The translations under genes and the position numbers were made by a program. A DNA stretch of 64,000 nt, from assembly GCA_037200445.1 (NCBI GenBank), contig JBBCGH010000001.1, positions 1,054,001-1,118,000 on the forward strand. Reading direction: 5' to 3'. Positions 56,246 through 63,994 of this stretch are shown piece by piece (position 1 is the first letter of the stretch; each line of letters starts with the position of its first letter). The stretch is from Alphaproteobacteria bacterium. Lineage in GTDB: Bacteria; Pseudomonadota; Alphaproteobacteria; Rhizobiales; Xanthobacteraceae. Below the pieces are notes generated by a model. The model was not told the DNA's origin, ran no database searches, and was given only the letters and a program-made list of their open reading frames with translations.

Positions 56246-56611
56246 ATGGACCACCTCAGTGCCACCTTCGCGGCGCTCGCCGATCCGACCCGGCGGGCGA
56301 TCCTTGCGCGGCTTTCGCTCGGCGAGACCTCGGTGACCGAGCTTGCCGCGCCGTTCGAGATGTCGATGCCGGCGGTGTCGAAACATCTCAAGGTGCTGGA
56401 GCGCGCCGGACTGATCTCGCGCGGCCGCGAGGCGCAGTGGCGCCCCTGCCGCATCGAGGCGGCCGCGCTGAAGGACGTCGACGAGTGGCTCGAGCGCTAC
56501 CGCGCCTTCTGGGAGGCGAGCTTCGACCGCCTCGACGAATACTTGCGTGAGGTGCAGGCGAAGGAAACACGCAAGACGGCGCGCAAGAAGAAGTCCCAAA
56601 ACACGGAGTGA
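56246..56611 (+). CDS. ArsR-family transcriptional repressor
   Basis: This 121-residue winged-helix protein has TFAALADPTRRAILARLSLGETSVTELAAPFEMSMPAVSKHLKVLERAGLISRGREAQWRPCRIEAAAL, the pattern of ArsR proteins that precede SRPBCC/AHSA1 genes. It has no metal-binding C-x-C motif; the one cysteine is in WRPCRIE. A lysine-rich tail ends the protein. It heads an operon with VOC and SRPBCC genes and probably represses its own promoter. The inducer is unknown. Confidence 0.92.
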   Translation: MDHLSATFAALADPTRRAILARLSLGETSVTELAAPFEMSMPAVSKHLKVLERAGLISRGREAQWRPCRIEAAALKDVDEWLERYRAFWEASFDRLDEYLREVQAKETRKTARKKKSQNTE

Positions 56612-56614
56612 CCG

Positions 56615-57100
56615 ATGAGCATTTCGGCCAAGAAGATTTCCCCCTGCCTCTGGTTCGACAACCGGATCGAGGAGGCGGTGAATTTCTACGTATCGCTGTT
56701 CGGCGGCAAGATTCTCGACACCAGCACCTACAACGACGCGGGCCCGATGCCGAAGGGCACCGTGCTGACCATGACCTTTACGCTGCACGACGAGGAGTTC
56801 ATGGCGCTCAACGGCGGCCCGCAATTCCAGTTCACCGAAGCCGTGTCGTTCCTGGTGAAGTGCAAGGATCAGGCCGAGGTCGACAAATACTGGAATGCGC
56901 TCACTGCCGACGGCGGGCAGGAATCGCAGTGCGGCTGGCTCAAGGACAAGTATGGGCTCTCCTGGCAGATCGCGCCGGAGACACTGCTCAACTACGTCAC
57001 CGGCAAGGATGCCGAGCGCGCCAAGCGCGTCATGCAGGCAATGTTCACGATGAAGAAGATCGACGTCGCGGCGATCGAGAAAGCCGCGGGTGCCGCATGA
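56615..57100 (+). CDS. VOC/PhnB-like glyoxalase-fold protein
   Basis: This 161-residue protein (KKISPCLWFDNRIEEAVNFYVSLFGGKILDT, LTMTFTLHDEEFMALNGGPQFQFTEAVSFLVKC, CGWLKDKYGLSWQIAPETLLNYV) belongs to the PhnB/'3-demethylubiquinone-9 methyltransferase' VOC group. Despite that name these proteins are not methyltransferases. It starts 3 nt after the ArsR stop and overlaps the SRPBCC gene by four bases. Its substrate is unknown. Confidence 0.9.
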   Translation: MSISAKKISPCLWFDNRIEEAVNFYVSLFGGKILDTSTYNDAGPMPKGTVLTMTFTLHDEEFMALNGGPQFQFTEAVSFLVKCKDQAEVDKYWNALTADGGQESQCGWLKDKYGLSWQIAPETLLNYVTGKDAERAKRVMQAMFTMKKIDVAAIEKAAGAA

Positions 57101-57549
57101 CCGATACACGGACCGACGGCCTCGTGCTGACGCGCGTGTTCGACGCGCCGGTCGATCTGCTGTGGCGCTGCTTCACCGAGCAGGAACATCTCGCCAAGTG
57201 GTCGGCGCCGCGCGGCTACACGCTTCCCGTTGGCGAAGGCGATCTGCGCGCCGGCGGCACATGGCGCTGCTGCATGCGCGATCCGGATGGCGGGGAGCAT
57301 TGGCTCGGCGGCACCTATCGCGAGATCGTGCCGCACCGGCGTCTCGTGATGACCCATGCCTGGGAGGAGAACGGCAAGCGAGGCCCGGAAACGCTGGTCA
57401 CGGTTCGCTTCGAGGACCTCGGCGGACGAACCAAGGTCACGCTCGAGCAGACCGGCTTTATCTCGGATGCGTCGCGCGACGGACATTGCGGCGGCTGGAG
57501 CGAGTGCTTCGATCTGCTCGCCGAACATCTTGCAACAATGCGCCGCTGA
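57097..57549 (+). CDS. SRPBCC/AHSA1-domain protein (first)
   Basis: This 150-residue protein has the AHSA1 pattern LVLTRVFDAPVDLLWRCFTEQEHLAKWSAP, DLRAGGTWRCCMRDPDGGEHWLGGTYREIVPHRRLVMTHAW, then TLVTVRFEDLGGRTKVTLEQTGF and GWSECFDLLAEHLA. It is a hydrophobic-cavity helix-grip fold, possibly binding a lipid or aromatic ligand. Translationally coupled to the VOC gene (ATGA) in the ArsR operon. Confidence 0.9.
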   Translation: MTDTRTDGLVLTRVFDAPVDLLWRCFTEQEHLAKWSAPRGYTLPVGEGDLRAGGTWRCCMRDPDGGEHWLGGTYREIVPHRRLVMTHAWEENGKRGPETLVTVRFEDLGGRTKVTLEQTGFISDASRDGHCGGWSECFDLLAEHLATMRR

Positions 57550-57562
57550 CGGAGATTTTTTC

Positions 57563-58069
57563 ATGGACCTTTCGACCACGCAGGATTTTGTTTTCGTGCG
57601 CACCTTCGCGGCGCCGCGCAATCTGGTGTGGAAGGCGTGGACCAGCGCGGAAGCGTTCGGCCAATGGTGGGGGCCGAAAGGCACCACGCTACGCGTGCTC
57701 AAGTTCGATCTGCGGCCCGGCGGCCTGTTCCACTATGCGTTCGCGTTCCAGCCGGGGCACGAGATGTACGGCCGCTTCGTCTATCGCGAGATCGTCGCGC
57801 CTGAGCGCCTCGCGTTCGTGATTTCGTTCTCCGATGCGGAAGGCGGGATCACGCGCGCGCCGTTCCCGCAGCTCAAGGACCGGTGGCCGCTGGAAGTGCT
57901 CAACGTCATGCGGCTGACCGAGCTCGACGGCGAGACCACGCTCACCCTGCGCGCCAGTCCGCTCAACGCCGGCGAGGAGGAGCGCGCGATGTTTGCGAGC
58001 AACATCGACTCGATGCGTCAGGGCTTCGGCGGCACGTTCGACAAGCTGTCGCATTACCTGGCCGGCTGA
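57563..58069 (+). CDS. SRPBCC/AHSA1-domain protein (second)
   Basis: This 168-residue AHSA1 protein has FVFVRTFAAPRNLVWKAWTSAEAFGQWWGPKG, FDLRPGGLFHYAFAF, MYGRFVYREIVAPERLAFVISFSDAEGG and a C-terminal NIDSMRQGFGGTFDKLSHYLAG. The ATG follows GGAGATTTTTTC, 13 nt after the previous gene. It ends the ArsR operon; a strong hairpin (58094-58119) follows. Confidence 0.9.
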   Translation: MDLSTTQDFVFVRTFAAPRNLVWKAWTSAEAFGQWWGPKGTTLRVLKFDLRPGGLFHYAFAFQPGHEMYGRFVYREIVAPERLAFVISFSDAEGGITRAPFPQLKDRWPLEVLNVMRLTELDGETTLTLRASPLNAGEEERAMFASNIDSMRQGFGGTFDKLSHYLAG

Positions 58070-58120: not shown

Positions 58121-58150
58121 TGTCGATCGGCCGCCGCCTCGTTCGTCGTC
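58121..58150 (+). promoter_or_regulatory. ECF42-type promoter A
   Basis: -35 TGTCGA (58121-58126), a 17-nt spacer, -10 CGTCGTC (58144-58150). Identical boxes and spacing recur at 61828 and 63518. An A-tract (GGAAAAATTATC) lies about 20 bp upstream. TGTCGA/CGTC is the reported preference of ECF42 sigma factors linked to DGPF proteins. It should drive the four-gene run starting at 58199. Confidence 0.75.
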
Positions 58151-58198
58151 TTTGTGAGAGGGGCCCGGGGCACGGCGCCCGCCTGACGGGAGAAGGTC

Positions 58199-58732
58199 AT
58201 GCTCAAGATCGTTGGCATTGTGGTTGTGGTGCTGATCGTCGCGGTGCTCGCCGTCGTCGCCTACGCGTCGACGCGGCCGGATGCGTTCCAGGTGCAGCGT
58301 TCCGCCAGGATCAAGGCGCCGCCCGACAGGATTTTCCCGCTGATCGCCGACTATAAAAACTGGCCGCAGTGGTCGCCCTACGAAGGCCGCGATCCCGACA
58401 TGAAGCGCAGCTTCAGCGGCGCGGCGTCCGGCAAGGGCGCGAAGTACGCCTGGGAGGGCAACAAGAATGTCGGCTCGGGCGAGATGGAGATCATCGACAC
58501 GACGCCGAACAAGATTTTGATCAAGCTCGACTTCATCAAGCCGTTCGAGGGCCACAACATCGCGGAGTTCACGCTCGAGCCGCAGGGCGACACGACCAAC
58601 GTGACCTGGGCAATGGATGGGCCGGTGCCGCTGATCGGCAAGGTCATGCATATGGTGATGGATATGGACAAGATGATCGGCAACGACTTTGCGGCCGGCC
58701 TCGACAAGATGAAAGCCGCCGCCGAGAAATAG
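58199..58732 (+). CDS. Membrane-anchored SRPBCC-family protein
   Basis: This 177-residue protein has one N-terminal transmembrane helix (IVGIVVVVLIVAVLAVVAYAS). A polyketide-cyclase-like SRPBCC domain follows (FQVQRSARIKAPPDRIFPLIADYKNWPQWSPYEGRDPDMKRSF, GEMEIIDTTPNKILIKLDFIKPFEG, TWAMDGPVPLIGKVMHMV). The domain probably faces the periplasm or is membrane-tethered. It is the first gene after the TGTCGA/CGTCGTC promoter and is followed by three co-oriented genes. Confidence 0.9.
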   Translation: MLKIVGIVVVVLIVAVLAVVAYASTRPDAFQVQRSARIKAPPDRIFPLIADYKNWPQWSPYEGRDPDMKRSFSGAASGKGAKYAWEGNKNVGSGEMEIIDTTPNKILIKLDFIKPFEGHNIAEFTLEPQGDTTNVTWAMDGPVPLIGKVMHMVMDMDKMIGNDFAAGLDKMKAAAEK

Positions 58733-58743
58733 GGAGTTTCGCG

Positions 58744-59226
58744 ATGACCGCCGCCGCCAGGGCCGCAAAGCCGATCGCCGAGAGCGAGGTCTTGCTGAGC
58801 CGCATGTTCGATGCGCCGCGCGCGCTGGTCTTCCGGACGTGGACCGACCCGCATCATCTGGCGCAATGGTGGGGTCCGCGCGGCTTCACCAACCCGGTGT
58901 GCGAACTGGACCTGCGGGTCGGCGGCCGGATCCTGATCCACATGTGCGCGCCGGACGGCACCGTCTATCCGATGACCGGCACGTTTTGCGAGATCGTGGC
59001 GCCGGAGCGGCTCGTGTTCACCGCCATCGCCGAGGACGTGAGAGGCCGCGCGCTGCTCGAGGGTCTGGTCACCGTGACGTTCGAGGATCGGGACGGCAAG
59101 ACGAAGGTCACCGTCCGCGAGAAAGCGGTCGCGCTCGTGCCGGTCGCGGGTCCGATGCTTGCCGGCATGGAGAACGGCTGGGCGCAAAGCCTGACCAGGC
59201 TCGACGTGCTGGTCGCAAAGGCGTGA
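58744..59226 (+). CDS. SRPBCC/AHSA1-domain protein (third)
   Basis: This 160-residue protein has VLLSRMFDAPRALVFRTWTDPHHLAQWWGPRGFTNPVCELDLRVGGRILIHM, YPMTGTFCEIVAPERLVFTAIA and GLVTVTFEDRDGKTKVTVREKA. The C-terminal MENGWAQSLTRLDVLVA closes the helix-grip cavity. It starts 11 nt after the previous gene with GGAG before the ATG, so it is in the same operon under promoter A. Confidence 0.9.
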   Translation: MTAAARAAKPIAESEVLLSRMFDAPRALVFRTWTDPHHLAQWWGPRGFTNPVCELDLRVGGRILIHMCAPDGTVYPMTGTFCEIVAPERLVFTAIAEDVRGRALLEGLVTVTFEDRDGKTKVTVREKAVALVPVAGPMLAGMENGWAQSLTRLDVLVAKA

Positions 59227-59258
59227 CTGCGCGCCGCCGATATCGAAGGAGCATCAGC

Positions 59259-59984
59259 ATGCAGCCGAAAATCGTCTCCCATGAGGAATGGATCGCCGCG
59301 CGCGAGGCACATCTGAAGAACGAGAAGGCGCTGACCCGGATGCGCGATCTGGTCAGCGCCGAGCGGCGCGCGCTGCCCTGGGTCAGGGTGGAGAAGCGCT
59401 ATGTCTTCGACACGACGCGCGGCAAGAGGACGCTTGGCGAGCTGTTCGGCCGCAACAGCCAGCTGATCGTGCATCATTTCATGTGGCGGCACGATCTCGA
59501 TTCAGGCTGCCCGAGCTGCTCGCTCGAGGCGGATCATGCCGAAGGCGCGATCGTGCATCTGGAGAATCACGATGTGAGCTATGTGCACGTCTCGCGCGCG
59601 CCGCTTGCCAAGCTTGCCGCCTACAAGAAGCGGATGGGCTGGACCGCCGAATGGGTGTCGTCCTGGGAAAGCGACTTCAACTACGACTATCACGTGTCGT
59701 TCACCAAGGAGGAGCTCGCGACCGGCGAGGTCTACTACAACTACCGCATGACCAGAGACGGCTTCGACGAGCTTCCGGGCCTGAGCGTGTTCGTCAAGGA
59801 CGACGCCGGCCAGGTGTTCCACACCTATTCGAGTTACGCGCGCGGCAACGAAGAGGCGATCGGCGCCTTCATCTATCTCGACATGACGCCGAAGGGCCGC
59901 AACGAAGGCGAAATCATGGACTGGGTGCGCCGCCACGACGAATACGACGCACCCGCGCAATCCCGTCACGCCAAGAGCGCGTGA
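59259..59984 (+). CDS. DUF899 thioredoxin-like protein
   Basis: This 241-residue protein of the DUF899 family (IVSHEEWIAAREAHLKNEKALTRMRDLVSAERRALPWVRVEK) has a thioredoxin-like region with a CPSC motif (RHDLDSGCPSCSLEADH). It continues with conserved GWTAEWVSSWESDFNYDYHVSF and FHTYSSYARGNEE. The family is a cytoplasmic dithiol/peroxiredoxin-like group without assigned activity. Its place among SRPBCC and DGPF genes under the same promoter type suggests an oxidative or xenobiotic stress role. Confidence 0.9.
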   Translation: MQPKIVSHEEWIAAREAHLKNEKALTRMRDLVSAERRALPWVRVEKRYVFDTTRGKRTLGELFGRNSQLIVHHFMWRHDLDSGCPSCSLEADHAEGAIVHLENHDVSYVHVSRAPLAKLAAYKKRMGWTAEWVSSWESDFNYDYHVSFTKEELATGEVYYNYRMTRDGFDELPGLSVFVKDDAGQVFHTYSSYARGNEEAIGAFIYLDMTPKGRNEGEIMDWVRRHDEYDAPAQSRHAKSA

Positions 59985-60016
59985 CCGTTTCAAACACACA
60001 CCGGAGGAATACTCGC

Positions 60017-60376
60017 ATGCCCTACGTCGACGGTTTCATCGTGCCGCTGCCGAAAAAGAACCTGAAGGCCTATCGCGCGATGGCGAAGAAGGCCGGCAAG
60101 GTTTGGCGCGAGCATGGCGCGCTCGACTACAAGGAATGCATCGCCGACGACGTGAAGATGGGCAAACGGACCTCGTTCCCGCGCAGCGTGAAGCAAAAGC
60201 CAAGCGAGACCGTGGTGTTCTCCTACGTCGTCTACAAGTCGCGCGCCGACCGCGACCGCTGTGTCGCCAAGGTGATGCAGGACAAGCGCCTCGCCGCGAT
60301 GATGGATCCGAAGAAGATGCCATTCGACGCGAAGCGCATGATCTACGGCGGCTTCAAAGTGTTCGTTGAGGCCTAG
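60017..60376 (+). CDS. DUF1428 protein
   Basis: This 119-residue protein has the DUF1428 opening MPYVDGFIVPLPKKNLKAYR, the central GALDYKECIADDVKMGK and the C-terminal MPFDAKRMIYGGFKVFVE. It is a dimeric alpha-beta-barrel (ferredoxin-like) family of unknown function, structurally related to YCII/EthD folds. GGAGG precedes the ATG. It is the last gene of the promoter-A operon and converges with a minus-strand gene. Confidence 0.9.
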   Translation: MPYVDGFIVPLPKKNLKAYRAMAKKAGKVWREHGALDYKECIADDVKMGKRTSFPRSVKQKPSETVVFSYVVYKSRADRDRCVAKVMQDKRLAAMMDPKKMPFDAKRMIYGGFKVFVEA

Positions 60377-60392
60377 CCGCCGTATGCCGATG

Positions 60393-60986
60393 TCAGGGCT
60401 TGATCGCCTTGAAGGGCTCCACCTGGATCCGCTTGTCGGTCTTGGGCTCGTCGCCCTTGATCGGGATGGTCTTGGCGATCTTCCGCGCCGCGATGGTCTC
60501 GGTGTCCATCGTGGAAACCTCGCCGTTCTTGGGATTCGCGCTGTAGACCGCCACGACATCGAGCTCCGAGGCGCTGTTGAGCACGAGGAACCCGTCGATC
60601 GCCGTGAAGTCCACGCAAACGCCGTTGATCGGGCAGAAAAAATTGGCAATGTCGAAGCAGTTGATGGCGACCGCCTGGTCCGGGCCGAGAACGAACGACT
60701 TGTACGGCGTGATGCTGAAGCCTCCGGCCGTGTCGCCTGGGCTGCCGGAGAGCGCGAACTTGCGCGCCACCTCGATCTTCTTTTCCGTCGGATTGTGAAT
60801 GTTGATCAGCGTGCGGTAGCGGCCCGGCGCCATCGCATCGCCGAACCCGAAGTCGCCGAGCAGCGTGCACAGCGTCTTCACGGCGTATTGATAGGACGTC
60901 TTGAGTTGCGCGTGAGCGGGAGTCGATGCCGTCAACGCCAGTATCGCGAGGAAGAACATGACGAAGAGTGAACGTAAGCTGCGCAT
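60393..60986 (-). CDS. Exported hypothetical protein
   Basis: This 197-residue protein has a signal peptide (MRSLRSLFVMFFLAILALTASTPAHAQ). The mature part is mainly beta and carries cysteines at TLCTLLGD, NCFDIANFFCPINGVCVDF, probably disulphide-bonded. RTLINIHNPTEKKIEVARKFAL and GFLVLNSASELDVVAVYSA resemble immunoglobulin-like or adhesin-type sandwich strands. It stands alone, convergent with the DUF1428 gene and interrupting the stress-gene array. Function unknown; start at 60986 fits the signal peptide. Confidence 0.75.
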   Translation of the reverse strand: MRSLRSLFVMFFLAILALTASTPAHAQLKTSYQYAVKTLCTLLGDFGFGDAMAPGRYRTLINIHNPTEKKIEVARKFALSGSPGDTAGGFSITPYKSFVLGPDQAVAINCFDIANFFCPINGVCVDFTAIDGFLVLNSASELDVVAVYSANPKNGEVSTMDTETIAARKIAKTIPIKGDEPKTDKRIQVEPFKAIKP

Positions 60987-61138
60987 GAGAAGCCCCCGGG
61001 TTTGAATGGCCATGGAGTTTCGTGCGGGCCGCAATGCCCGCTGAGCTACGCTATGGTTGCATACACCAAAAAGCCCGTTCGGGCGAGCAAAGAATCCGCT
61101 TCGTTACGCCGCACCGGTTTTCAAACGAGAGGTCCCGC

Positions 61139-61798
61139 ATGTCGCTCACGCTGCATTTCCACCCGCTCTCCTCGTTCTGCCACAAGGTGCTGATCGCGCT
61201 GTACGAGAACGGTACTCCGTTCATGCCGAAGCTGGTCAATCTGCAGGACGAGAGCGAGCGCGCAGCGTTCCACGCACTATGGCCGGTCGGAAAGTTTCCG
61301 GTGCTGCAGGACGCGGCGCGCGACCGCATGGTGCCGGAGTCGAGCATCATCATCGAATATCTCGACCAGCATTATCCGGGCGCAACGAAGCTCATCCCCG
61401 GGGACCCCGAGCAATCGCGCGTGGTGCGCTTCGGCGACCGCTTTTACGATCTGCACATTCACCTGCACATGCAGAAGATCGTCGGTGACCGGCTGCGGCC
61501 CACCGGCGCAAAAGACCCGCATGGCGTCGCGGACGCGCGCACCCGCATGGCGGCGGCACTTGCCCTCGTCGAGAAGCAGATGCCGGGCCGCACCTGGGCC
61601 GCCGGCGAGACCTTCACAATGGCTGACTGCGCCGCCGCGCCGGCGCTGTTCTATGCCGACAAGGTTGCCCCGCTCGCCGGTCCGTATCCGAACGTCGCCG
61701 CCTATCTCGAGCGCCTCAAGCAGCGGCCGTCCTATGCGCGCACGCTGAAGGAGGCCGAGCCCTACTTCAAATTCTTCCCCAAGGAGGAGGCGGCGTAG
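61139..61798 (+). CDS. Glutathione S-transferase family protein
   Basis: This 219-residue protein has a thioredoxin-fold N-terminal domain (LTLHFHPLSSFCHKVLIALYENGTPF, with S/C at the catalytic position; VGKFPVLQD with the cis-proline; VPESSIIIEYLDQHYPG with the glutathione-contacting E-S). The helical C-terminal domain is MPGRTWAAGETFTMADCAAAPALFYA. It probably conjugates or reduces electrophiles. ATG at 61139; no ECF42-type promoter was found in front of it. Confidence 0.92.
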   Translation: MSLTLHFHPLSSFCHKVLIALYENGTPFMPKLVNLQDESERAAFHALWPVGKFPVLQDAARDRMVPESSIIIEYLDQHYPGATKLIPGDPEQSRVVRFGDRFYDLHIHLHMQKIVGDRLRPTGAKDPHGVADARTRMAAALALVEKQMPGRTWAAGETFTMADCAAAPALFYADKVAPLAGPYPNVAAYLERLKQRPSYARTLKEAEPYFKFFPKEEAA

Positions 61799-61827
61799 CC
61801 GTACGCGGAAAAAGTTCTCCGCCCCCG

Positions 61828-61857
61828 TGTCGATCTGCGCCCGCCCCATTCGTCGTC
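61828..61857 (+). promoter_or_regulatory. ECF42-type promoter B
   Basis: TGTCGA (61828-61833), 17-nt spacer, CGTCGTC (61851-61857), preceded about 20 bp upstream by GGAAAAAGTTCTC. Boxes and spacing are identical to promoters A and C. It lies 37 bp before the small secreted-protein gene that leads into a DGPF gene and a VOC gene. Confidence 0.75.
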
Positions 61858-61894
61858 TTGTCGAGAGGCTGGTTCCAAGCGACGGGTGGTTCCC

Positions 61895-62119
61895 ATGATC
61901 GAATTCAAGCTGCGGTTCTTCGTTGTGCCGGCGATCGCGCTGACCGTGCTCGCCATGCTGTACGCGCCGGCCGATGGCGGCCTGGCTGCGCCCGGCCAGT
62001 GTGGGCCCGCCGTGCGCATCGCCGACCCCGGCATCCGGGCGAGCTTCGTTGCGGCCGAGCGCCACCAGTCGCGCACCGCATCGGGGATTTGCGCGGTTCA
62101 CGCCAACAATCTGCGCTGA
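61895..62119 (+). CDS. Small exported hypothetical protein (74 aa)
   Basis: MIEFKLRFFVVPAIALTVLAMLYAPADGGLA is a probable signal peptide or anchor. The remainder (APGQCGPAVRIADPGIRASF, then SGICAVHANNLR) has two cysteines that could pair. It lies between promoter B and the first DGPF gene and is too short for a confident family call. A GTG at 61886 could extend it by three codons. Confidence 0.65.
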   Translation: MIEFKLRFFVVPAIALTVLAMLYAPADGGLAAPGQCGPAVRIADPGIRASFVAAERHQSRTASGICAVHANNLR

Positions 62120-62157
62120 GCGCAGCCGTCACATTCATTCACACGAGGAGCAATACG

Positions 62158-62577
62158 ATGCGTTTCATGGTGATCGTCAAGGCGACGAAAGACTCCGAGG
62201 CCGGCGAGATGCCGTCCGAGGAGATGCTTGGCGCAATGGCGAAGTTCAACGAGGAGATGGTCAAGGCCGGCATCATGCTCGACGGGGCCGGGCTGCAATC
62301 GAGCCAGAAGGGCGCGCGCATCCGCTTCGAAGGCGGCAAGCGCTCCGTGATCGATGGGCCGTTCGCCGAGACCAAGGAGCTGATCGCCGGCTACTGGATC
62401 ATCCAGGTGAAGAGCAAGGCTGAGGCGATCGAGTGGATGAAGCGCTGCCCAAATCCCTATAACGAGGACGGCGAGATCGAAATCCGCCAGTTCTTCGAGC
62501 TGGAGGACTTCGGCGAGAGCGCGGCCGTCGATCATCACAAGGCGGTCGGCGAGCAGATGGCGGCGCAGCAGAAATAG
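62158..62577 (+). CDS. DGPF/YCII-family protein (first)
   Basis: This 139-residue protein has the YCII-related fold: MRFMVIVKATKDSEAGEMPSEEMLGAMAKFNEEMVKAG, GGKRSVIDGPFAETKELIAGYWIIQVKS with the signature DGPFAETKE, then CPNPYNEDGEIEIRQFFE. Such proteins are genomic partners of ECF42 sigma factors. GAGGAG precedes the ATG. It is transcribed after the small exported protein from promoter B. Confidence 0.93.
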   Translation: MRFMVIVKATKDSEAGEMPSEEMLGAMAKFNEEMVKAGIMLDGAGLQSSQKGARIRFEGGKRSVIDGPFAETKELIAGYWIIQVKSKAEAIEWMKRCPNPYNEDGEIEIRQFFELEDFGESAAVDHHKAVGEQMAAQQK

Positions 62578-62622
62578 CCGCAATCGGAGCAGAGATTTCG
62601 AATAGGCAAACAGGAGACATTC

Positions 62623-63039
62623 ATGCAGACGCAGATTTACCTGGTCTTTGACGGCCGTACCGAGGAAGCGCTCGATTTCTACAAGAAGACGCTCGGCGTC
62701 GAAGTGCAGATGATGATGCGCTTCAAGGACGCGCCGGGCCCGCAGGATCCCAATTGTCCGCCGCCGAAGAATCCGAACGCCGTCATGCATTCGTCGTTCA
62801 AGCTGGGCGACCAGCAGGTGATGGCGTCCGACGGCGACAGCGGCGGCAAACCGGAGTTCAAGGGCTTCTCGCTCACCCTCGCTGTGGACACGGAAGCGCA
62901 AGCCGAGAAGCTGTTCGCCGCCTTGAGCGAAGGCGGAAACGTGAAACAGCCGTTGATCCCGACGTTCTTCTCACCCAAATTCGGGATTGTGCAGGACAAG
63001 TTCGGCGTCGGCTGGATGGTGCTGGTCAACCGGCCGTAG
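62623..63039 (+). CDS. VOC/PhnB-like protein (second)
   Basis: This 138-residue glyoxalase-fold protein (TQIYLVFDGRTEEALDFYKKTLGVEVQMMMRFKD, VMHSSFKLGDQQVMASDG, GGNVKQPLIPTFFSPKFGIVQDKFGVGWMV) is the PhnB-like group seen next to DGPF genes. It follows the first DGPF gene by 45 nt, with AGGAGA before the ATG. Substrate unknown. Confidence 0.92.
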   Translation: MQTQIYLVFDGRTEEALDFYKKTLGVEVQMMMRFKDAPGPQDPNCPPPKNPNAVMHSSFKLGDQQVMASDGDSGGKPEFKGFSLTLAVDTEAQAEKLFAALSEGGNVKQPLIPTFFSPKFGIVQDKFGVGWMVLVNRP

Positions 63040-63110
63040 CGCATGATCCCGAAAAAGCCTGCCCCGCACTTGATGCGGGGTGTGAAGCGGTTTTCGGACA
63101 AGATCATGCG
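63040..63110. repeat. Rhizobial-type palindromic element (GCATGATC...GATCATGC)
   Basis: CGCATGATC (63040-63048) and GATCATGCG (63102-63110) are exact inverted arms, with CCGAAAA and TTTTCGG inside and a central hairpin CCCCGCACTTGATGCGGGG. Elements with this arm sequence are widespread in Bradyrhizobium/Mesorhizobium-type genomes. It follows the VOC stop directly and may terminate that transcript. Confidence 0.8.
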
Positions 63111-63139
63111 CAAGAATTCACCGCGCCCTGGAGGATTGA

Positions 63140-63493
63140 ATGCCCTACATGCTGCTGGTGATGGAGCCCGCGGGGCAGCGCGAGGCGCGGCCGCTGCCGG
63201 AAGGCCATGAGGCCTATGACCGCATGGTACGTTTCGGCGAAGACCTGCGCGCCAGAGGATTTCTGAAGGCCTACGACTCGCTCGGCTCAACCGCAAAAGG
63301 CACGCGCGTGCAAGTGCGCAACGGCAAGCGCAGCATGGTCGACGGGCCGTTCGCCGAGGCGAAGGAGATCGTCGGCGGATTTTTTCTGCTCGACTGCTCA
63401 CGCGAGCAGGCGCTGGAGGCGGCTGCCGTCTGTCCGGCCGCCGAATTCGCCACCATCGAGGTGCGCGAGGTCGGGCCCTGCTGGGAGAAATGA
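63140..63493 (+). CDS. DGPF/YCII-family protein (second)
   Basis: This 117-residue protein starts MPYMLLVMEPAGQREARPLP and has GKRSMVDGPFAEAKEIVGGFFLLDC (DGPFAEAKE, one change from the usual signature) and a C-terminal CPAAEFATIEVREVGPCW. GGAGG lies 7 nt before the ATG. No TGTCGA/CGTCGTC promoter precedes it, so it probably relies on readthrough past the palindrome at 63040. Confidence 0.92.
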   Translation: MPYMLLVMEPAGQREARPLPEGHEAYDRMVRFGEDLRARGFLKAYDSLGSTAKGTRVQVRNGKRSMVDGPFAEAKEIVGGFFLLDCSREQALEAAAVCPAAEFATIEVREVGPCWEK

Positions 63494-63517
63494 AGCGCGA
63501 GAAAATTTCTCGTTCGC

Positions 63518-63547
63518 TGTCGACTCCGCCGGTCCCCGTTCGTCGTC
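63518..63547 (+). promoter_or_regulatory. ECF42-type promoter C
   Basis: TGTCGA (63518-63523), 17-nt spacer, CGTCGTC (63541-63547), with GAGAAAATTTCTC about 20 bp upstream. It matches promoters A and B exactly in both boxes and spacing. It lies 45 bp before the last DGPF gene and would also cover whatever follows the window. Confidence 0.75.
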
Positions 63548-63592: not shown

Positions 63593-63994
63593 ATGCGCTT
63601 CATGGCTATCGTCAAACCCGGCAAGGACTACGAGGCGGGAAAGCCGCCGAACCCCGAGCTGATGGCTGCGATGGGACGGCTCTCTCAGGAGCAGCAGAAG
63701 CTCGGCGTTTTCGTCATGGGCGGCGGCCTGCTGCCGAGCGCGCAGGGACACAAGGTGCGGATGTCGGGCGGCAAGATCACCGTTACCGACGGGCCGTTCG
63801 CCGAGACCAAGGAGGTGATCGGCGGCTTTGCGATCCTCAACTATGCGAGCCACGCGGAAGCGATCGAAGGCGCGCGGCGGGTGGTGCAGATCCATGCCGA
63901 GCATGGCTACACGGAGCTCGAAATCGAGTTGCGTCCCATGATGGACCCCGCCGAATGCGGGCAGGCGCCGCAGCAGCAGGCCTCGGCGGCCTGA
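63593..63994 (+). CDS. DGPF/YCII-family protein (third)
   Basis: This 133-residue protein has MRFMAIVKPGKDYEAGKPPNPELMAAMGRLSQEQQKLGVFVMGGGLLPS, then GGKITVTDGPFAETKEVIGGFAILNYASHAEAIEGARRVVQIH and a Glu/Met-rich end. The DGPFAETKE signature is intact. It lies 45 bp downstream of promoter C and stops 6 bases before the window edge. In related loci the next gene is an ECF sigma factor; that cannot be seen here. Confidence 0.93.
   Translation: MRFMAIVKPGKDYEAGKPPNPELMAAMGRLSQEQQKLGVFVMGGGLLPSAQGHKVRMSGGKITVTDGPFAETKEVIGGFAILNYASHAEAIEGARRVVQIHAEHGYTELEIELRPMMDPAECGQAPQQQASAA

Follow-up and report, generated by a model that had tools for sequence, protein, structure and literature searches.

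The DNA stretch analysed here (the window, 64,000 nucleotides) covers positions 1054001-1118000 of the genome of an alphaproteobacterium of the Xanthobacteraceae, a genome that consists of one contig of 5.84 Mb. We identified three sites with the sequence TGTCGA-N17-CGTCGTC (P1 to P3) in the window and a fourth copy (P4) elsewhere in the genome. These four sites are very probably promoters of one sigma factor of the ECF42 group, whose gene begins just past the right end of the window. Those in the window stand ahead of clusters of small genes of a detoxification type, and in many other bacteria similar genes follow the same promoter. Thus, the sites appear to define a real regulon, mostly of a known type.

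Predicted promoter sites and the adjacent sigma factor gene

58121..58150, + strand: P1, predicted ECF42-type promoter TGTCGA-N17-CGTCGTC (motif match)
61828..61857, + strand: P2, predicted ECF42-type promoter TGTCGA-N17-CGTCGTC (motif match)
63518..63547, + strand: P3, predicted ECF42-type promoter TGTCGA-N17-CGTCGTC (motif match), ahead of DGPF3 and the sigma factor gene
64047-65294 in window-equivalent coordinates (L005:8048-9295), outside the window, + strand: ECF42-type sigma factor gene, 415 aa (PF04542, PF08281, PF20239)

The three window sites have the same TGTCGA and TTCGTCGTC boxes and a spacer of exactly 17 nucleotides. All are intergenic (flanking open reading frame (ORF) borders at 58069 and 58199, 61798 and 61895, and 63493 and 63593). 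Their positions, boxes and spacing are as in the original prediction, which described three identical intergenic sites. It also placed start codons 37-50 bp on; the distances from site end to next start codon are 48 bp (P1), 37 bp (P2) and 45 bp (P3), a range of 37-48 bp, and the nearest start after P2 is that of a 74-aa ORF rather than a DGPF gene. The start of DGPF1 (62158) is 300 bp past the P2 site. TGTCGA-N17-CGTC occurs three times in the window, compared with a mean of 0.30 after shuffling, and 1 of 100 shuffles reached three. Transcription starts are expected near 58156 (P1), 61863 (P2) and 63553 (P3), because two Sinorhizobium meliloti RpoE10 starts are positioned 9 nt past CGTC.

The sigma factor gene starts 52 bp past the end of DGPF3. 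ECF domains are present in the protein, as shown by matches to sigma2 (PF04542, 3.5e-9) and sigma4 (PF08281, 1.2e-10), and its C-terminal extension includes DUF6596 (PF20239, 2.5e-36) at residues 184-284 of 415. An ECF sigma factor with an ECF42-type C-terminal extension had been predicted just right of the window, and this gene, starting at 64047, is where it was expected. In a structural model of a Myxococcus homologue (74% identical), the chain is helical from residue 181 on (mean pLDDT 87). Foldseek with the same homologue gave TPR proteins as top matches (with modest TM-scores), and the extension is probably TPR-like. Two features typical of ECF42 systems are present: DGPF3, a DGPF/YCII gene, adjoins the sigma factor gene, and P1-P3 match the promoter pattern TGTCG[A/G]-N17-CGTC. 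DGPF-type genes are found in 77 of the 83 loci searched (80 homologue loci and three of this genome). The gene after the sigma factor gene encodes a PLD-like protein. There is no evident anti-sigma partner among the neighbours read as ORFs, for which no anti-sigma profile was run.

Genome-wide, TGTCGA-N17-CGTCGTC occurs four times (backward-read control, 0) and the shorter TGTCGA-N17-CGTC 19 times (control, 3). Thus, the extra GTC supplies much of the specificity. P4 (position 3693067, - strand) is 44 bp ahead of a remote DGPF gene (DGPF4, L006:9598-10023). The full motif is rare, as had been anticipated, and its sole other exact copy precedes another gene of the DGPF family. Outside the boxes, the four copies agree at 5-10 of the 15 bases in the spacer and at 6-16 of the 40 that follow, a similarity that does not suggest recent duplication of one from another. 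A scan allowing one mismatch was too noisy (103 sites; control, 64). TGTCGG-N17-CGTC was found 18 times (control, 7) and never in the cluster; five of these matches are one repeated sequence. This sequence, TGTCGGTGATCATGTGGCGCTTGCGTC, is present in identical copies at G000:C1:160083, 3285344, 4677385, 5476789 and 5683999, perhaps within a repeated element.

Genes behind the promoters

58199..58732, + strand: SRPBCC protein (Polyketide_cyc2; PF10604, 1.7e-15), with a hydrophobic N-terminal segment by eye
58744..59226, + strand: SRPBCC protein (AHSA1; PF08327, 1.1e-30)
59259..59984, + strand: DUF899 protein (PF05988, 6.8e-91)
60017..60376, + strand: DUF1428 protein (PF07237, 2.2e-40; solved relative 2okq YbaA)
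61895..62119, + strand: 74-aa ORF, first after P2, without a Pfam family, with a signal-like N-terminus by eye
62158..62577, + strand: DGPF/YCII protein 1 (DGPF1; PF03795, 1.5e-19)
62623..63039, + strand: VOC protein (3-dmu-9_3-mt / glyoxalase; PF06983, 4.3e-15)
63140..63493, + strand: DGPF/YCII protein 2 (DGPF2; PF03795, 9.8e-12)
63593..63994, + strand: DGPF/YCII protein 3 (DGPF3; PF03795, 1.8e-13)

The genes after P1 are, in order, those for the Polyketide_cyc2 SRPBCC, AHSA1, DUF899 and DUF1428 proteins. P2 is followed by the 74-aa ORF, DGPF1, VOC and DGPF2, and P3 by DGPF3 and then the sigma factor gene. No sigma-70 promoter was identified in L005 1800-9700, the stretch that includes the sigma factor gene (0.9 expected). 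The same stretch has 13 terminator-like matches (6.2 expected); none of the four on the + strand lies between the proposed units.

Conservation at ECF42 loci

The locus is kept in the nearest congener, in which the sigma factor is 85-86% identical. There, a P1-like site precedes genes for DUF1428 and GST, a second site precedes DGPF1-VOC-DGPF2 and a third precedes DGPF3 and the sigma factor gene. The boxes of P2 and P3 are conserved although their spacers have drifted, agreeing at just 8 of 15 bases in each case. At the P1-like site the -10 flank is weaker (GCACGTCGT), and 103 bp separate the end of the site from its gene. Within the 19 kb fetched for the congener locus, no SRPBCC or DUF899 gene and no match to the 74-aa ORF (61895-62119) were found.

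Across 80 named ECF42 loci, TGTCGA and CGTC are separated by 17 bases 42 times, by 14 bases 3 times and by 20 bases 14 times (8 of these last being repeat matches to N17 sites). High counts were also obtained out of phase (32 at 15, 29 at 18 and 27 at 21), so raw counts alone mislead. We put these high counts down to codon phase, and relied on the in-phase spacing of 20 and on downstream genes. For 79 loci with enough upstream DNA, we searched the 1.8 kb before the sigma factor gene. TGTCGA-N17-CGTC is present on the sigma strand in 28 loci and on the other strand in none. Spacers of 11, 14, 15, 16, 18, 19 and 23 gave 0-2, and a spacer of 20 gave 9, of which 8 are N17 sites re-matched through CGTCGTC. 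Sites in the 80 loci and the three of this genome are mostly (35 of 46) at most 400 bp before a DGPF, VOC or SRPBCC gene or the 74-aa ORF. The same TGTCGA/TTCGTCG boxes recur where close homologues of the adjacent sigma factor are encoded.

The motif across whole genomes

A stringent form of the motif, TGTCGAY-N14-TTCGTCGT, was found in the genomes of 8 of 101 relatives. Where the genome encodes an ECF42 protein of at least 60% identity, 6 of 13 have it (this genome counted), compared with 2 of the 88 others (Fisher p 3.3e-5); with this genome left out, the count is 5 of 12 (p 1.9e-4). A control with a spacer one base longer matched in 10 of the 101 genomes, this one not among them. In a sample of 398 genomes from the phylum, one of them the present genome, 17 have the motif. 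These two sets yielded 30 sites outside this genome, 21 of which have a family gene within 200 bp (by local profiles: DGPF 12, VOC 4, GST 3, SRPBCC 1, DUF1428 1) and 9 of which have none. Two of the latter precede genes that, by eye, resemble RibD_C and VOC. Motif sites at L177 and L178 are ahead of genes that, on visual inspection, resemble RND efflux operons, possibly by chance.

We also searched 49 ECF42-bearing genomes, taken from 50 of the 80 loci (the 26 actinobacterial loci and L014, L028, L076 and L083 were omitted). TGTCGAY-N14-TTCGTCG occurs 70 times, in 31 genomes, with no match for the backward control and seven for the in-phase wrong spacing of 20. The genes behind these sites were classified using profiles seeded by the window proteins and built from ECF42 loci (DGPF, VOC, GST, DUF899, DUF1428, SRPBCC and sigma). 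A family gene starts 5-142 bp downstream of 55 of the 70 sites (distances are rough, being based on longest-ORF starts). The same procedure found a family gene behind none of the 30 spacing-18 sites (of 58) for which loci could be used, and behind none of 10 sites with a spacer one base longer.

At 21 of the 55 sites the gene is at the sigma factor locus. The other 34 sites, away from it, precede genes for DGPF (11), VOC (8), GST (7), DUF899 (4), DUF1428 (3) and AHSA1 (1) proteins. The genomes with DUF899 behind the motif are those of two Paraburkholderia, Solimonas marina and Rhodanobacter sp. C06, and those with DUF1428 are two Dyella and a gammaproteobacterial metagenome-assembled genome. 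Pfam, against which 18 downstream proteins were checked, confirmed DUF899 (4 of 4), DUF1428 (3 of 3) and the AHSA1 protein. One further SRPBCC case in this set is at the sigma factor locus; an extra case each of SRPBCC and DUF1428 came from genomes beyond the 49. Inclusion of SRPBCC, DUF899 and DUF1428 genes in the regulon was first suggested from the window alone. The same motif now found before such genes in unrelated bacteria, mostly off the sigma factor locus, agrees with that suggestion, and their membership in the ECF42 regulon is, at the sequence level, well supported. GST, not named at that time, is a further frequent target in other genomes. The GST, DUF899, DUF1428 and SRPBCC targets are all in Pseudomonadota; outside this phylum, where few genomes have sites, these precede DGPF, VOC and DoxX genes.

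Promoter anatomy

The base after TGTCGA is T at all 55 family-gene sites, for which the pattern allowed C or T. Ahead of TTCGTCG, C is found at 47 and G at 41 of these sites. Of the 55 sites, 18 have an AAAA run between 6 and 26 bp ahead of the -35 box, mostly starting 15-20 bp upstream. Such a run occurs at 1 of 55 when the search is shifted 40 bp further upstream, and at none of the 30 spacing-18 sites. In this genome the A-tract is found, as GAAAA, at each of P1-P4. The tract resembles an UP element and may act as one.

Alternative explanations

Several observations weigh against the assignment of these sites to the adjacent sigma factor. Among genomes that encode a close ECF42 protein, 7 of 13 lack the stringent motif; in six of these the sigma factor locus was fetched, and two have a looser TGTCGA-N17-CGTC and four have no site. 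It is likewise lacking in 18 of the 49 ECF42-bearing genomes, where the out-of-phase spacing of 18 gave nearly as many sites (58) as the true spacing. No profile match was found behind 15 of the 70 sites. Pfam assigned five of these downstream proteins (VOC 3, RibD_C 1, DoxX_2 1) and at two sites the proteins that follow are related to each other and match no Pfam family; for the remaining eight, inspection of the ORFs gave no credible target (one is at a contig end). In S. meliloti, the motif before the DGPF gene of RpoE10 overlaps a mapped start, and the DGPF-rpoE10 unit does not respond to RpoE10 (passages of PMC6180224). Finally, a second ECF42 paralogue of this genome has a similar site, with cross-recognition possible: GGTCGA-N17-CGTC, 51 bp ahead of its own DGPF gene (L009:5811-6242).

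The two motif sites before related proteins are at L272 and L275 of Rhodanobacter sp. C06, and the proteins are secreted-looking.

The second paralogue, also a DUF6596 sigma factor (G000:C1:1789315-1790535, 39% identical, encoded behind that DGPF gene), raises the question of whether P1-P4 are real promoters read mainly, or also, by it or by another ECF sigma factor. Its own site is near the same consensus. However, P3 is just ahead of the unit of the adjacent sigma factor, loci of close homologues share the TGTCGA/TTCGTCG boxes, and the flank of CGTC differs (AACGTCTA at the site of the second paralogue, TTCGTCGT at those of the adjacent sigma factor). This flank difference is a possible basis of paralogue specificity. 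We consider reading by another sigma factor unlikely.

It is far less probable that the three sites are relics of a segmental duplication or mobile repeat rather than selected promoters. DGPF1, DGPF3 and DGPF4 are paralogues (36-55% identical), and promoters could have been copied along with them. However, the four sites resemble one another little in flanks and spacers, P1 precedes an SRPBCC gene, and in the congener the boxes are kept while the spacers drift. Duplication and mobile-repeat origins were rejected based on this flank dissimilarity and conservation pattern. Chance matches in G+C-rich DNA are the least credible source of the sites: 15 of the 19 TGTCGA-N17-CGTC matches are outside the four discussed, and one (3925014, TTCGTC), 128 bp before a small gene of another family, may be a chance match, but the longer box gives 4 versus 0 and target families follow 55 of 70 sites versus 0 of 30.

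Proposed mechanism

Under the favoured explanation, one ECF42 sigma factor for P1-P4, RNA polymerase bearing this sigma factor would read TGTCGA (-35) and CGTC (-10), 17 nt apart, probably assisted by the upstream A-tract. Four units would be transcribed: two SRPBCC genes, DUF899 and DUF1428 from P1; the small ORF, DGPF1, VOC and DGPF2 from P2; DGPF3 and the sigma factor gene from P3; and the remote DGPF gene from P4. P3 would thus drive the sigma factor gene itself, in a positive feedback loop. Given the TPR-like extension and the lack of an evident anti-sigma partner, activity is probably set by the extension through an encounter with another protein or a signal, and the sigma factor would then fire P1-P4. 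The families of the products (VOC, SRPBCC, DUF899 and DGPF, with GST in other genomes) point to chemical defence, in which small molecules that are reactive or foreign would be dealt with. The computation establishes the sites and their specificity, the sigma factor gene, the conservation and the target families; dependence on the sigma factor, the limits of the units, the feedback, control through the extension and the detoxification role are inferred.

Comparison with known ECF42 systems

This kind of system, the ECF42 regulon, is already known, and the one described here is a further member with a better-defined target set. The promoter motif of Streptomyces venezuelae ECF42 sigma factors is TGTCGA / CGA/TC.

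The closest comparison is with S. meliloti RpoE10, an ECF42 sigma factor, as presented in passages of PMC6180224. Both systems have a DGPF/YCII gene right before the sigma factor gene, the 17-nt spacing and a CGTC -10 element. The three promoters listed for RpoE10 are TGTCGG-N17-CGTC (spacing recounted), unlike the TGTCGA found here, and for two of them transcription starts 9 nt past CGTC (PMC6180224). The RpoE10 targets, a hydrophobic-ligand-domain gene and glyoxalase-like genes, resemble those identified here; DUF899, DUF1428 and GST targets are not mentioned in those passages (PMC6180224). RpoE10 had no activating effect on its own unit, in contrast to the autoregulation proposed here, and autoregulation may not be universal among ECF42 systems.

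S. venezuelae ECF42 (Liu et al. 2018), although actinobacterial, is similar in its YCII-domain neighbour and in its essential, TPR-rich C-terminal extension of ~200 residues (passages of PMC8999054). The same passages describe ECF42 as a widespread group whose signal and interaction partner are unknown; the TPR-rich extension is essential for activity and the YCII protein is the suspected partner (PMC8999054). Pseudomonas putida ECF-10, another ECF42 member, has a gene neighbourhood like that of RpoE10 (passages of PMC6180224) and is tied to oxidative stress and antibiotic sensitivity (passages of PMC8999054). An ECF42 switch from Xanthomonas is reported to work in an S. meliloti strain that lacks ECF sigma factors (passage of PMC10880074). 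A literature search, with the main ECF42 papers outside its reach, returned no paper joining DUF899 or DUF1428 with a sigma factor, or ECF42 with DGPF. The papers listed for TGTCGA sigma factor promoters include none named for ECF42. We do not claim the wider regulon as unpublished, as the main ECF42 papers lie outside that search.

Neighbouring genes

A row of ArsR, VOC, AHSA1 and AHSA1 genes (56246-58069) ends 51 bp ahead of P1, and the motif scan of the window identified no TGTCGA-N17-CGTC site for this row. The row encodes the same protein kinds as the regulon, next to an apparently different regulator. In the congener (L143), DUF1428 and GST are 5 bp apart with a single site ahead of both. 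In this genome, a minus-strand ORF without a Pfam family (60393-61798) stands between them, and the GST gene may have lost its promoter.

Implications

A promoter that is recognisable from sequence, with targets counted across many genomes, links the DUF899, DUF1428 and DGPF/YCII families to one switch, and makes the role of the ECF42 group testable. More tentatively, and with somewhat less than even confidence, we suggest that the reach of ECF42 sigma factors extends beyond the DGPF neighbour to a common chemical-defence regulon. Its promoters would have TGTCGAT and TTCGTCG, often with an A-tract, and its members would be DGPF, VOC, GST, SRPBCC, DUF899 and DUF1428 genes, with RibD_C and DoxX genes in occasional cases. 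If so, DUF899, DUF1428 and DGPF proteins would gain a common physiological context, and DGPF proteins would possibly report substrate state back to the TPR extension of the sigma factor.

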